Translations under genes and position numbers: made by a program | In this document: in pieces, positions 28,816-34,047 of the stretch | Layout: every line of letters begins with the position of its first letter | Position numbering within the stretch: the stretch's first letter is position 1 | Notes under the pieces: generated by a model | Databases searched by the model: none | What the model was told of the DNA's origin: nothing | The model's input: the letters and a program-made list of their open reading frames with translations, nothing else | DNA from: Alphaproteobacteria bacterium | GTDB taxonomy: Bacteria > Pseudomonadota > Alphaproteobacteria > Ferrovibrionales > Ferrovibrionaceae | Reading direction: 5' to 3' | NCBI GenBank assembly: GCA_017307375.1 | Contig: JAFKFH010000005.1 | Span: 310,001-374,000 of the forward strand | Length of the DNA: 64,000 nt

Positions 28816-29991
28816 TCAGCACGCCCTCAGCGCCTGCTCCAGATCCTCCAGCAGGTCCGCGGTCGCCTCGATCCCCACGGCCAGCCTGATCAGACCCGGC
28901 GTCAGCCCCTGCTCGGCCAGCGTCTCGGGCGACAGCCGCTCGGCGAACAGCACCGCCGGCTGGGTCACCACCGTCGACACGCCGCCCAGGCTCGAGGCGT
29001 TCCTGGCCAGCTTCATCCGGGCGATGAGATCGATGCCGGCCTGGTAGCCGCCCTTGAGATCGAAGGTCAGCAGGCCGCCGAATCCCGACATCTGCCGCCG
29101 CGCCAGCTCATGTTGCGGGTGGGAGTCGAGACCGGGGTAAAAGACCCGGGCCACCGCCGGATGCCGCTCCAGGAGGCGCGCCGCAGCCAGCGCCGTTGCG
29201 TTCTGCTGACGCACGCGCAGTTCCATCGTGCGAATGCCGCGCAGCGCCAGCCAGGAATTGAACGGCGCGCCGATGGCGCCGGTCGTCATCGACAGGTCCC
29301 ATATCCGTTCCATCACCGCGCGCGACGAGACAACGCAGCCGGCCAGCAGGTCGTGATGGCCGCCGATATATTTGGTGACCGAGTGCATCACGATGTCGAC
29401 GCCCTGGTCGATCGGCCGCTGATTGATCGGCGTGGCGAACGTCGAGTCGCAGGCAGTGAGGATGCCCCGCGCCCGCGCGATCTCGCAGACCGCCCGGAAA
29501 TCCGTCAGGTGCATCATCGGATTGACCGGGCTTTCCAGCACGATCAGCCTGGTATTGGGGCGGATCGCTGCGGCGAAGGCATCGGGATCGCGCTGGTCGA
29601 CGCGTGTCGTCTCGACGCCATAGCCGGGCATCAGGTCGGTCAGCATCTTGGTGATGCCGATATAGTGATTGCGCTGGCCGACGATATGGTCGCCGGCCCG
29701 CACCAGCGCCATGATCGTCGTGGCGATCGCCCCCATGCCCGAGGCGAAGACCAGACCGGTCTCGGCCCCTTCCAGGTCCGCGATCACCCGCGCCAGCCGT
29801 GACGAGGTCGGGTTGCCGCGGCGCGTATAGTAGCTGTCGCCCATTGTCGTGGCGATCTCGGCCAGATGATCGGCATCGCGCGCGCTGTGATTGACCGACT
29901 GATGCAGCGGCGGCGCCATGCTGTAGGGGTCGGCCAGGCCTTCGTCGGCGTGCAGCAGGCGGGTGGTGATCGAGGTGGCTTGCGCGGTCAT
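28816..29991 (-). CDS. PLP-dependent Cys/Met-metabolism lyase (trans-sulphuration family)
   Basis: This 391-residue member of the cystathionine gamma-synthase/beta-lyase/methionine gamma-lyase fold has the PLP Lys207 in HSVTKYIGGH, preceded by DSTFATPINQRP. SYYTRRGNPT and the FASGMGAIAT phosphate-binding segment are intact. Which reaction it runs cannot be read safely: gamma-lyase and beta-lyase members share these marks. The ATG at 29991 has an AGGAG site six bases upstream. The MocR regulator reads into it from the same strand with an 87-base gap. Confidence 0.9.
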   Translation of the reverse strand: MTAQATSITTRLLHADEGLADPYSMAPPLHQSVNHSARDADHLAEIATTMGDSYYTRRGNPTSSRLARVIADLEGAETGLVFASGMGAIATTIMALVRAGDHIVGQRNHYIGITKMLTDLMPGYGVETTRVDQRDPDAFAAAIRPNTRLIVLESPVNPMMHLTDFRAVCEIARARGILTACDSTFATPINQRPIDQGVDIVMHSVTKYIGGHHDLLAGCVVSSRAVMERIWDLSMTTGAIGAPFNSWLALRGIRTMELRVRQQNATALAAARLLERHPAVARVFYPGLDSHPQHELARRQMSGFGGLLTFDLKGGYQAGIDLIARMKLARNASSLGGVSTVVTQPAVLFAERLSPETLAEQGLTPGLIRLAVGIEATADLLEDLEQALRAC

Positions 29992-30078
29992 GGCTTCTCC
30001 TGGAGATCGGGCACGCGCCGTCCCCACCGATGTCCGGGACATCGGCCGTGCCTGGTTGCAATGAAAGTCAGCGAAAGA

Positions 30079-31458
30079 TCAGGTGGCGGTGGCCGGCCGG
30101 CCTGGTCCCTGGGCCAGCAGGCAGGCCGTCGCATCGAGGGCGCGCCGCAGCGCGTGATGGTCGGCAGCCGCACCCAGTCCCAGCCTGACGCCACGGCGGC
30201 GCCCCTGGTCGGGCAACGGCCGGAACGAGGCATCGCCGAGCAGTGCGACGCCGGCGGCCAGCGCCGCCGCGACAAAACCGTCCGACGTCCATTCGGGGCC
30301 GAGTTCGATCCAGCTGCACAGGCTGGCCCCCCCGGCCGGATGCGCATGGCTGCCCAGGGCCTCGGCCGCGATCGCCTGGCGTGCCCGCGCCTCGGCCCGT
30401 TTGGCGCGAAGGGTCGCGGCGGCGGTGCCGTCGCTGATCCAGCGGGCAGCTATCTCGGCCGGCAGGGGCGAGACCGCCCAGAGAGTCGCGAGGATGCGGC
30501 GCAGCACGAGGCGCAGGCATGCCTCGGGCGGCGCCAGGAAGCCGAGCCGCAATCCGCTGCAGACCACCTTCGACAGCGTCGCGATGAAGAACGTCCGCTC
30601 GGGCAACAGCACCGCATAGGATGGCGGCGGGTCGTCGGCATAAAGGCGGTGGATATCGTCCTCGACGATCCACAGGCCGTGGCGGGCGGCCAGCGCGGCA
30701 ATCCGCCGGCGGCGATCCTCCGGCTGCGTCGTCGTGGTCGGATTCTGGATCGTCGGGCAGGTATAGAGCACGGCGGCGTGACGGTGGGCGTAGAGCGCGC
30801 GCTCGAGCGCGTCAGGCTCCAGCCCCTCCCCGTCCATCGCCACCGGGATCAAATCCAGGCCCAGCATGTCGGCCGCCTCGCGCAAGCCGGGATAGGTCAG
30901 TTCCTCGGTCAGCACCGCCTGGCCCGGCCTTGTGCAGGCCGAGAGCGACAGCAGCAGCGCGTTCTGCGCGCCGGCGGTCAGCAGGATCTGCTCGGCCGAC
31001 CGTTCGACGCCGCAGCGCCGTAGCCATACCGCCGCAGCCTCGCGATGGGCGCGTTCGCCGCCTTGCTCCCGATCGGTCAGCAGGTCCTGGCAGCCGGCAT
31101 CGGCCAGCGCACGCAGCGCCGGGCCGAGCGGCGGATCGAGCATGTTCAGCCCGCGATTGATGCGGAGATCGACCGGCCCGGCCAGCGGGCCGGCCCCGGC
31201 CGCCGCGATGAAAGCATCGGCCCGTCGCGCGACATAGGACCCGCGCCCGACGGTGGAGCGGATCAGCCCTTCGGCCCCGGCATCGCGATAGACCCGGGCG
31301 ATCGTGCCGACCGCGACCCCGATCGCCTGCGACAGGTCGCGCTGGGCCGGCAGCCGGTCACCGGGATTGAGCCGGCCCGACCGGATCTCCTCGCGCAGCG
31401 CGGCCATCAGCGCCTGGTGCTTGCGCGGCGTGAAGCGGTTGACGTTGGGCATCCACAT
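30079..31458 (-). CDS. MocR-family (GntR with aminotransferase domain) regulator
   Basis: The 459-residue product has an N-terminal GntR winged helix (about residues 10-75, with the GDRLPAQRDLSQAIGVAVGT recognition region) and a C-terminal fold-type I aminotransferase-like domain that binds PLP through a Lys in TLSKVVCSGLRLGF. MocR proteins sense vitamin B6 or amino-compound levels. I chose the ATG at 31458; a TTG at 31494 in frame would overlap an inverted repeat, and an ATG at 31452 is also possible. The likely target is the PLP enzyme downstream. The 5' gap carries nested palindromes (31471-31533). Confidence 0.91.
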   Translation of the reverse strand: MWMPNVNRFTPRKHQALMAALREEIRSGRLNPGDRLPAQRDLSQAIGVAVGTIARVYRDAGAEGLIRSTVGRGSYVARRADAFIAAAGAGPLAGPVDLRINRGLNMLDPPLGPALRALADAGCQDLLTDREQGGERAHREAAAVWLRRCGVERSAEQILLTAGAQNALLLSLSACTRPGQAVLTEELTYPGLREAADMLGLDLIPVAMDGEGLEPDALERALYAHRHAAVLYTCPTIQNPTTTTQPEDRRRRIAALAARHGLWIVEDDIHRLYADDPPPSYAVLLPERTFFIATLSKVVCSGLRLGFLAPPEACLRLVLRRILATLWAVSPLPAEIAARWISDGTAAATLRAKRAEARARQAIAAEALGSHAHPAGGASLCSWIELGPEWTSDGFVAAALAAGVALLGDASFRPLPDQGRRRGVRLGLGAAADHHALRRALDATACLLAQGPGRPATAT

Positions 31459-31470
31459 GCCCGGCAGTGT

Positions 31471-31533
31471 CGATGGAGCAGGCAATTGGTTCAATTGCCG
31501 AATTGCACCAATTTTGGTGCCGGTGCTCCATCG
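31471..31533. promoter_or_regulatory. Nested palindromes between ccoS and the MocR gene
   Basis: Outer 10-bp arms CGATGGAGCA (31471-31480) and TGCTCCATCG (31524-31533) are perfect inverted repeats. They enclose two smaller ones: GGCAATTG-GTT-CAATTGCC (31481-31499) and GCACCAA-TT-TTGGTGC (31505-31520). The whole can fold as a three-way junction in DNA or in the minus-strand RNA. As DNA, the two inner palindromes could be operators for the MocR protein; as RNA, the structure could be the ccoS terminator or a leader. Which is true is not readable. Confidence 0.55.
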
Positions 31534-31541
31534 CTATCGCG

Positions 31542-31724
31542 CTATCTGGTCCGCTGCCGGGCCGGCCCGGCATCCGCCCCGCCGGCCTCGTCGTCGAACA
31601 GCACGCGGTTGGCGGCGCCGTCCAGGTCTTCAAACTGGCCGCTGCGCAGGGCCCACAGGAAGGCGCCCAGCCCCAGCAGGCCGAGTGCCAGCGCCACCGG
31701 TATGAGCACGATCAATCCGTTCAT
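31542..31724 (-). CDS. ccoS: cbb3 oxidase maturation protein CcoS
   Basis: The 60-residue product has one hydrophobic helix (MNGLIVLIPVALALGLLGLG) followed by the family signature FLWALRSGQFEDLDGAANRVLFDDE. CcoS is a small inner-membrane protein needed for cofactor insertion into cbb3 oxidase. It is the last gene of the operon. Its first 95 bases overlap the end of ccoI in another frame, far more than the usual few bases. The extra C-terminal tail rich in Ala, Gly and Arg is not typical. Confidence 0.9.
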   Translation of the reverse strand: MNGLIVLIPVALALGLLGLGAFLWALRSGQFEDLDGAANRVLFDDEAGGADAGPARQRTR

Positions 31725-34047
31725 CGGAAGCCCTCAAACGCAGGGAATTGAGACTGACCAGCAGCGACGACGACGACATCGCCGCGGCCGCGATCAGCGG
31801 GGTGACGAGGCCGGCGACCGCGAGCGGCACTGCCAGCAGATTGTATCCGATCGACAGCGCGATGTTCTGCCAGACCAGCCGGCGTGCCCGTCGCGCCACC
31901 GAGATCACGGTCGCCACCGGCGCCAGCAGGTCGCCCTGGAAAACCGCATCCGCCGCCGTCTGGCTGATGTCGGCCGCCGACGACGGCGACAGCGACACGA
32001 AGGCCGCGGCCAGGGCCGGGGCATCGTTCAGCCCGTCGCCGACCATCAGGACCTTGGCGCCCCGCGCGGCAAGCTCGGAGAGCACGGCGACCTTGCCGGC
32101 CGGATCGATTTCGGCGCGCCAGTCGTCGATGCCGCAGGCGGCCGCCGTGGCCGCGACGACGTCACGACGGTCGCCCGACAGCAGGACCAGCTTCAGGCCC
32201 CGCCGCTGCAAGGTCGCCAGCACGTCGGCCGCGTCCTTCCTGGGCGCATCGGTGAAGACAAAATGGGCGACACGCCCATCGGCCCGCCGCAGCCAGATTT
32301 CCGGGCCACCGGCCGGCGGCGCATCGATACCGCAGAACTTCGCGCTGCCCAACCGCAAGTCGCCGCAACGCAACCCGGCACCAGGCTCCTCGACGACGCC
32401 GGCCATCGCCGGCACCGCGGCCGGCAGGCTGGCGACCAGGGCGCGCGACAGCACGTGGCGGCTGTCGGCCGCCAGCGCGGCGGCAAGGCGAAGGTCGTCG
32501 TCGTCATGGCCTTCGGCGCGGCGCAACACCGGCTTGCCGCGGGTAAGCGTGCCGGTCTTGTCGAGCACGACGGTATCGACCTGGGCCAGGCGCTCCAGCG
32601 CATCGGCGCTCTTGAGCAGGATGCCGGCGCGGAACAGCCGCGACGACGCCACCACCTGCACCGCCGGCACGGCCAGCGCCAGCGCACAGGGGCAGGTGAT
32701 GATCAGCACCGCGACCGCATTCAGCAGGCTCTCCTGCCAGCCTGCGCCCAGCGCCAGCCACAGGATCAGGGTCGACAGCCCCATGACGTGCACGACCGGC
32801 GCGTAACGCCGGGCCACCTGGTCGGCCAGGCGCACGAAACGGGTGCGGCCCTGCTCGGCATTCTCCATCAGCCGCGCGATCTCGGCCAGCAGGGTGCCTT
32901 CGCCCGCCGCGGTGACCGCGATCTCGATCGGCGGTCCGAGATTGACGGTGCCCGCATGGACCCGCGCCCCGGGACCGACCTGTGCCGGCAGGCTCTCGCC
33001 GGTCACCAGCGCGCAATCGATCTCCGACTGGCCCAGCGCGACTGCGCCATCGGCGCCGATACGCTCGCCGGTACCGACCGCGATGCGGTCGCCGGGGCGG
33101 ATCTCGGCGGCCGGTACCGCCTTGCGGCTGCCATCCGGCTCGATGCGGCGGACCGCGACTGCCGCCAGGCCCAGCAACTGCTCGGCCGCCGATTGCGCCC
33201 GGCCGCGGGCGAGCCGGTCGAGATAGCGGCCGACCAGCAGAAAGAACAGCAGCGACGTCGACGCATCGAAATAGGCGTGCTGGGCGTGTTCGATCGTCTG
33301 CCACAGGCTCATCGCGGTGGCGACGGTGACGCCGAGCGAGATCGGCACGTCCATGTTCATGCGGCCGGCCTTGAGACCGGCCCAGGCCGAGCGGTAGAAG
33401 GGCCTGCCGGCATAGGCTACCGCAGGCAGCGCGATCAGCGCCGACACCCAGTGCAGCAAGGTGCGCGTCGCCGTCCCCATCTCGCCATAACCGGCCCAGA
33501 TGGCGACGGAAAGCAGCATGATGTTGGAGGCGGCAAAACCGGCGACCGCCAGGGCGCGCAACAGCTGATGTTCCTCGCGCCGGGCGCTTTGCCCCATCCG
33601 GCATGGATCGTAGGGCATGACGCGATAGCCCAGCCGCGTGACCGCGGCGACCAGCGTCTCGGCCGTGGTCGCATCGGCCCGCCAGCGCAGGGCCAGCCGT
33701 CGCGTCGTCATGTTCAGCCGGGCATGGGTCACGCCGGGCTGGCGGGCCAGCATGTTCTCGATCAGCCAGACGCAGGCGGCGCAATGCAGGCCGTCGATCA
33801 GCAGATGCAGGCTGGCGATGCCGTCGGCGTCCGTCGTCACATAGGCCGCGGGATCGACCATGGCCGCGGCATCGTCGTCCTCGGGTCGCGGCGCGCGGGT
33901 ATCGTCGCGCAGGATGCGGCGCTGATACCAGCCGTCCAGCCCCAGGCTATGGATAAGTTCATAGGCACCCGCGCATCCCTTGCAGCAGAACCGCTGCGCC
34001 GGATCGGCCAGGGCCGCACCGCAATGCTGGCAGGTGCAGTCGCTCAT
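31630..34047 (-). CDS. ccoI: Copper-translocating P-type ATPase CcoI
   Basis: CcoI supplies copper to the cbb3 oxidase. The 805-residue product starts with a Cys-rich region (CQHCGAALADPAQRFCCKGC), then a heavy-metal domain with LHCAACVWLIEN, the translocation motif TCPCALALA, the phosphorylation site DKTGTLTRG, and the hinge MVGDGLNDAPAL. The ATG at 34047 overlaps the ccoH stop as ATGA. After the last helix (SLNSLRLRA, where family members often end) about 30 more Arg/Ala/Gly residues follow, all inside the ccoS gene in another frame. Confidence 0.94.
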   Translation of the reverse strand: MSDCTCQHCGAALADPAQRFCCKGCAGAYELIHSLGLDGWYQRRILRDDTRAPRPEDDDAAAMVDPAAYVTTDADGIASLHLLIDGLHCAACVWLIENMLARQPGVTHARLNMTTRRLALRWRADATTAETLVAAVTRLGYRVMPYDPCRMGQSARREEHQLLRALAVAGFAASNIMLLSVAIWAGYGEMGTATRTLLHWVSALIALPAVAYAGRPFYRSAWAGLKAGRMNMDVPISLGVTVATAMSLWQTIEHAQHAYFDASTSLLFFLLVGRYLDRLARGRAQSAAEQLLGLAAVAVRRIEPDGSRKAVPAAEIRPGDRIAVGTGERIGADGAVALGQSEIDCALVTGESLPAQVGPGARVHAGTVNLGPPIEIAVTAAGEGTLLAEIARLMENAEQGRTRFVRLADQVARRYAPVVHVMGLSTLILWLALGAGWQESLLNAVAVLIITCPCALALAVPAVQVVASSRLFRAGILLKSADALERLAQVDTVVLDKTGTLTRGKPVLRRAEGHDDDDLRLAAALAADSRHVLSRALVASLPAAVPAMAGVVEEPGAGLRCGDLRLGSAKFCGIDAPPAGGPEIWLRRADGRVAHFVFTDAPRKDAADVLATLQRRGLKLVLLSGDRRDVVAATAAACGIDDWRAEIDPAGKVAVLSELAARGAKVLMVGDGLNDAPALAAAFVSLSPSSAADISQTAADAVFQGDLLAPVATVISVARRARRLVWQNIALSIGYNLLAVPLAVAGLVTPLIAAAAMSSSSLLVSLNSLRLRASDERIDRAHTGGAGTRPAGAGRLPVGPAQRPV

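Follow-up and report, generated by a model that had tools for sequence, protein, structure and literature searches.

Three perfect inverted repeats occupied 63 bases (31471-31533) between ccoS and the gene of a MocR-type regulator in the window, as we call the whole 64-kb stretch of DNA analyzed here, and the arrangement raised the question of whether such an element works as a structured RNA or as a set of protein-binding sites in DNA. The answer that we consider probable is that a small MocR operon has its promoter-operator here, with the inner palindromes as predicted MocR boxes in DNA; the outer 10-bp arms, judging from related leaders, were probably added by chance in this genome. A preliminary description of this DNA had reported the nested palindromes and had called a chance origin of the double nest very unlikely, offering two operator sites for the MocR protein or an RNA fold in the leader as its function. 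All three pairings proved to be perfect where it had placed them (Table 1). A nest of this size (10/7/7), defined as outer arms of 10 bp that span no more than 80 bases and enclose two hairpins, each with arms of 7 bp or longer and a loop of 2-8 bases, occurred once in the window and in 0 of 60 dinucleotide shuffles. Under a relaxed definition (8/6/6), the element was still alone in the window (three overlapping hits), and the 60 shuffles summed to 13 hits. Outer arms of 10 bp by themselves were common, with 15 pairs in the window versus a mean of 11.9 per shuffle; the rarity of the nest arises from two adjacent palindromes together with arms that happen to flank both. Folded as RNA, both strands adopted the three-way form, the plus strand at -38.5 kcal/mol (z -4.15) and the minus strand at -37.8 kcal/mol (z -5.16), and 0 of 200 shuffles equaled either of them.

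Table 1. Positions in the window of the genes, repeats, boxes and predicted promoter elements at the ccoS-mocR junction.
Feature	Position	Strand	Remarks
Cys/Met-metabolism PLP enzyme, methionine gamma-lyase-like	28816-30042	-	36 bases downstream of regulator
MocR-type regulator	30079-31458	-	GntR wHTH and aminotransferase domain; ATG 31458 (MWMPNV..)
Predicted -10 GACACT (weak)	31466-31471	-	by eye, in register with orthologs; 7 bases before ATG
Outer arm CGATGGAGCA	31471-31480	none	10 bp; MocR-start side; pairs with 31524-31533
Inner palindrome GGCAATTG-N3-CAATTGCC (downstream)	31481-31499	none	8-bp arms 31481-31488 and 31492-31499, 3 bases between; likely MocR operator box over predicted -35
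Box AATTGGTTCAATT	31484-31496	+	from AATTGGTKCAATT search of genome
Predicted -35 TTGAAC	31489-31494	-	by eye, in register with orthologs
Box AATTGGTGCAATT	31501-31513	-	inverted relative to box 31484-31496 and 92% complementary to it
Inner palindrome GCACCAA-N2-TTGGTGC (upstream)	31505-31520	none	7-bp arms 31505-31511 and 31514-31520, 2 bases between; likely upstream MocR operator box
Outer arm TGCTCCATCG	31524-31533	none	ccoS side; pairs with 31471-31480
ccoS	31542-31724	-	upstream gene; end 8 bases from element

The regulator combined an N-terminal GntR winged helix-turn-helix (PF00392, E 1.2e-13, residues 13-74) with a C-terminal fold-type-I aminotransferase-like domain (PF00155, E 4e-18), and it matched GabR chains among solved structures (best E 1.4e-13). 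Its lysine in ..TLSKVVCSGLRLGF, which may be the PLP lysine, aligned with ..SFSKTLGPGLRLGW of MppQ. The best NCBIfam model was EhuR, at 390 bits and below the cut-off of 480. The start of the gene was best set at the ATG at 31458 because MW(M/S)PNV was common to three orthologs, L013, L094 and L095. For the enzyme encoded downstream, the best solved relatives were methionine gamma-lyases, and no NCBIfam model reached its cut-off among the best 25 of 57. There was no ectoine gene among the five proteins at the locus, regulator included, that were scanned by profile. At the ccoS end of the element, a direct repeat of CGCTATC lay in two copies (31532-31538 and 31540-31546) across the ccoS stop codon.

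A pattern-based scan of a genome collection yielded 64 relatives of the regulator, of which one was close (L013, 56% identity) and the next stood at 42%. The L013 locus is cut 40 bases before its ATG, and its missing upstream end was not found by way of the neighboring gene of L095. L094 and L095, both with full leaders, were found by searching around the genome of L013, and all three close orthologs come from around one genome. The gene order, regulator then enzyme, was the same in all three, with identities to the window operon of 56% for MocR and 62-64% for the enzyme. The N-terminus of the regulator was conserved in these orthologs, and GVAVGTIAR, presumably the recognition helix, was identical in all four regulators. 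Among loci taken with flanks of up to 3 kb, the enzyme was matched only in L013, in the window's own locus and, weakly and partially, in L011. Counting the query's own or the center genome, ortholog searches returned 4 of 61 relatives at E <= 1e-80, 2 among 385 genomes from the class (1e-90), 1 among 398 from the phylum (1e-100), 3 of 150 and 3 of 397 around the genome of L013, and 1 of 385 in the class around G758 at 1e-110; the class and phylum sets were samples of larger groups, as was the set searched at order level. None of the 17 same-family genomes searched matched the regulator at E <= 1e-80, and the plasmid collection gave no match to it at 1e-60. The operon may have been acquired by horizontal transfer, as its regulator was without a same-family match at that threshold and had its close orthologs around the genome of L013.

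Sequence alone guided the alignment of the four leaders, and pairing was counted with the window row left out because that row would support itself; the letters of L013 covered the downstream palindrome and one outer arm only. In the relatives, the upstream inner palindrome was paired in 13 of 14 cells, a count reached in none of 2000 random draws (null mean 5.8), and its downstream neighbor in 17 of 24 (null mean 10.1, P 0.004), while the outer arms in L094 and L095 were paired in 9 of 20 cells (null mean 8.4, P 0.47), which is chance. That the inner pairing is conserved and the outer one is not was observed directly in these few relatives. The preliminary description had proposed to look for the three-part pairing in orthologous MocR leaders, of which the inner part was recovered and the outer part was not, and this outcome, with the inner palindromes kept in relatives and the outer arms at chance, comes close to what it had named as speaking against the nested fold. 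Pooled over all three helices, pairing reached 77.1% versus 68.8% in shuffles (0 of 500), and the pairs changed on both sides numbered 8 versus 4.3 (6 of 500), with such changes assigned to 4 of the 10 outer pairs. The pooled values seem to back the whole fold, but once split by helix, the excess belonged to the inner helices. When slid by +5, the downstream helix was paired in 20 of 24 cells in the relatives versus the 17 in the window's own register, a gain to be expected from a 5-bp difference in the spacer between half-sites, which is N3 in the window and N8, from ATTG to CAAT, in L094 and L013. In the window leader, outer arms like the ones present had a low probability for such flanks (P 0.003 for length, 0.0015 for score), and the best flank helix lacked significance in both L094 (P 0.35) and L095 (P 0.25). 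On the sense strand, against mononucleotide shuffles, the leader fold had a z of -5.72 in the window, -1.63 in L094 and -1.28 in L095. Judged on these leader sequences, support for the outer arms outside this one genome is absent.

The inner palindromes occupied -62 to -47 (upstream) and -41 to -23 (downstream) in the window. Counterparts of the upstream palindrome were found at -67 to -49 as TCAAT-N9-ATTGA in L094 and CCAAT-N9-ATTGG in L095, a symmetric base change in both arms, and the downstream counterpart, ATTGA-N6-TCAAT, lay at -36 to -21 in L094 and -35 to -20 in L013 and was degenerate in L095. Spacings varied within and between boxes, with loops of 2 and 3 in the window and of 9 and 6 in the relatives. 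The local similarity of the window leader exceeded that of dinucleotide shuffles (n=500) for L094 (P 0.002), L095 (P 0.018) and L013 (P 0.012); the best local alignments with L094 and L095 fell in registers other than that of the global alignment, and therefore reflected shared words, not a fixed layout. The words ATTG, CAAT, TTGG and CCAA occurred 9 times in the window leader versus 3.4 in dinucleotide shuffles (P 0.004), 10 versus 2.1 times in L094 and 9 versus 2.2 in L095 (0 of 500 each), and 3 versus 0.9 in L013 (P 0.078).

With the boxes kept in register, the promoter layout read by eye was TTGAAC-17-GACACT-7-ATG in the window, TTGAGA-16-TATGCT-6-ATG in L013, TTGATA-16-TACTAT-7-ATG in L094 and TTGTAA-16-TATGAT-7-ATG in L095, so that the predicted -10 would end 6-7 bases short of the ATG in each of the four. 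A strict promoter scan of the window returned no promoter, and the predicted -35 and -10 were unmatched by it. The geometry shared by the four, with a -10 so close to the ATG, makes it probable that the mocR transcript starts at or beside the ATG; the message would then be leaderless, and its RNA would not contain the fold. Every base of the outer arm at 31471-31480 except the first fell inside the predicted -35/-10 spacer.

In the mechanism that we propose, the MocR protein would bind the ATTG/CAAT-type boxes that form the inner palindromes, of which the downstream one lies across the predicted -35 of a promoter that would serve both mocR and the Cys/Met PLP enzyme gene. Binding would control the operon, most likely by repressing it, until an amino-acid ligand, as we infer, reacts with the PLP in the regulator, and the two genes would be co-transcribed. 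With a transcript predicted to start at or next to the ATG, the palindromes would work as DNA. The suggestion of two MocR operator sites made in the preliminary description was supported by counterparts at similar positions, the symmetric base change, the likeness to MocR and EnuR operators and the position over the predicted promoter.

The likeness to EnuR was in arm length and spacing: the EnuR/EhuR (EutR) operator ATTGTnnnnnnACAAT resembles ATTGA-N6-TCAAT of L094 and L013, although the window itself, with ATTG-N3-CAAT, does not match it, as its half-sites are closer and its GC arms extended. The predicted EnuR operator, ATTGTn6ACAAT, lies over the predicted -35/-10 in the promoter that it would control (PMC8739950), and sites over (predicted) promoter core elements were likewise found here. 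The regulator differs from that system in that it fell short of the EhuR cut-off, even with EhuR as its best NCBIfam match, and its neighbor is a Cys/Met-type enzyme gene, with no ectoine gene among the five scanned. More generally, Suvorova and Rodionov 2016 (PMC5320631) describe MocR motifs of two to four boxes, direct or inverted, most with a TGT or TGG group. By its box anatomy, the element has a predicted operator of two to four direct or inverted boxes upstream of the regulator, with the conserved TGG group of the MocR multi-box operators in the available part of PMC5320631, and it differs from them in box distances that vary between relatives. The Cys/Met enzyme group (COG626/COG0626, metB, metC, gamma-lyase, cystathionine) gave no match in a word search of the main text of PMC5320631, and a full-text search of a limited literature collection found no paper with MocR and methionine gamma-lyase together; for MocR with a three-way junction, it found one paper, on another subject by its title. 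The pairing of a MocR regulator with a methionine gamma-lyase-like enzyme may be undescribed, yet it follows a known pattern. The locus offers a candidate operator and a likely target gene, that of the methionine gamma-lyase-like enzyme, for an uncharacterized MocR regulator.

A second reading also places the element in DNA and takes the outer arms as a further MocR half-site pair, making the operator a four-box site of ~60 bp, and this we judge unlikely. MocR motifs with four boxes exist (PMC5320631, Table 2, in the available text), and in L094, the flanks that align with the arms contain additional ATTGG and CAAT words. TGCTCCAT recurs near the ATG in L013, but there it overlaps the predicted -10 and could owe its presence to this. 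The arms, ATGGAGC/GCTCCAT, are unlike the ATTGG/CCAAT box, and a clear counterpart was not seen in L095.

The three helices could also act together, as a three-way junction of RNA that controls translation or RNA stability, either within a longer mocR leader or within read-through RNA from the cco operon, which as a whole we regard as improbable. The fold is strong on both strands, L094 can pair ATGAGG/TCTCAT at roughly the same flanks, and pooled covariation was above that of shuffles and of slid versions; read-through is possible, as 31400-31760 holds no terminator-like site. However, the outer helix was at chance in L094 and L095, their leaders folded poorly, the transcript start was predicted at the ATG, and no Rfam match was found within the element up to E 10. 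As a fold in the leader of the mocR message, the RNA alternative of the preliminary description was unsupported and was rejected, given the chance-level outer helix and the predicted start, and the leaders of the relatives were without a significant fold. Clustered operator boxes can mimic multi-branched RNA. Two related identities were also rejected: an intrinsic terminator, with 0 cases of a GC-rich stem plus T run in 31400-31760, and a described RNA family, as across 31300-31800 the sole hit up to E 10 was a miRNA model that scored below its threshold and lay beyond the element, at 31669-31755. A combined reading, in which the operator in this lineage gained the outer arms and a three-way fold, in cco read-through RNA or in extruded DNA, competes with MocR binding, has very little probability in our estimate; if true, the competing junction would link respiration (the cco oxidase operon) to sulfur amino-acid metabolism. 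Nested palindromes are typical of dispersed or mobile palindromic elements, and the regulator was without a match in the 17 same-family genomes at the threshold given above, but insertion of such an element between ccoS and mocR is scarcely credible, as the 7.54-Mb genome has only one copy of it, which rejects a dispersed or REP-like repeat (the best of 7 other matches covered 25 bases, E 0.08), plasmid and phage collections gave no match to it at E 0.1, and it shares its inner boxes with orthologous operons in other genomes.

Returning to the promoter-operator reading, we surveyed more distant homologs, 30-42% identical in the fold test. ATTG-N7..11-CAAT occurred near the start in 21 of 59 such loci versus 2.1 expected, and ATTGT-N6/7-ACAAT in 13 of the 59; these are the 64 relatives minus 5 left out, and they are related to each other and not independent. 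L010 and L014 apparently represent a single contig. Among 62 rows, from which the window's own two were excluded and 5 had been dropped as too short or partial, and with extrapolated starts, the fold upstream of the homolog had a z below -4 in L011 and L065 only, and neither was multibranched in its best fold. The values for these two leaders, over 100 bases upstream of the MocR homolog, were -6.04 and -4.58.

Within the window's own genome, AATTGGTKCAATT had two perfect matches in 7.54 Mb, both inside the element, and its reversed control had 0 matches, even at one mismatch. Allowing up to one mismatch gave nine sites, the two in the element and seven elsewhere (L079, L080, L081, L082, L083, L084 and L085). 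A wider regulon was not supported, as the flanks of all seven, examined by eye, were without a second such box or a clear set of target genes. GGCAATTGAACCAATTGCC at up to three mismatches matched the element alone, on both strands of one site, and its reversed control gave one match. At L084 (G000:C38:509206-509218 and flanks), an AT-rich, near-perfect hairpin, AAATACGTAAAATTG-GCT-CAATTTACGTATTT, stood within the GC-rich genome and is possibly the operator of another regulator. At L081 (G000:C20:87986-87998), the one-mismatch box AGTTGGTGCAATT lay a short way upstream of an ATG whose product, as we take it, resembles hydantoinase/5-oxoprolinase at its start.
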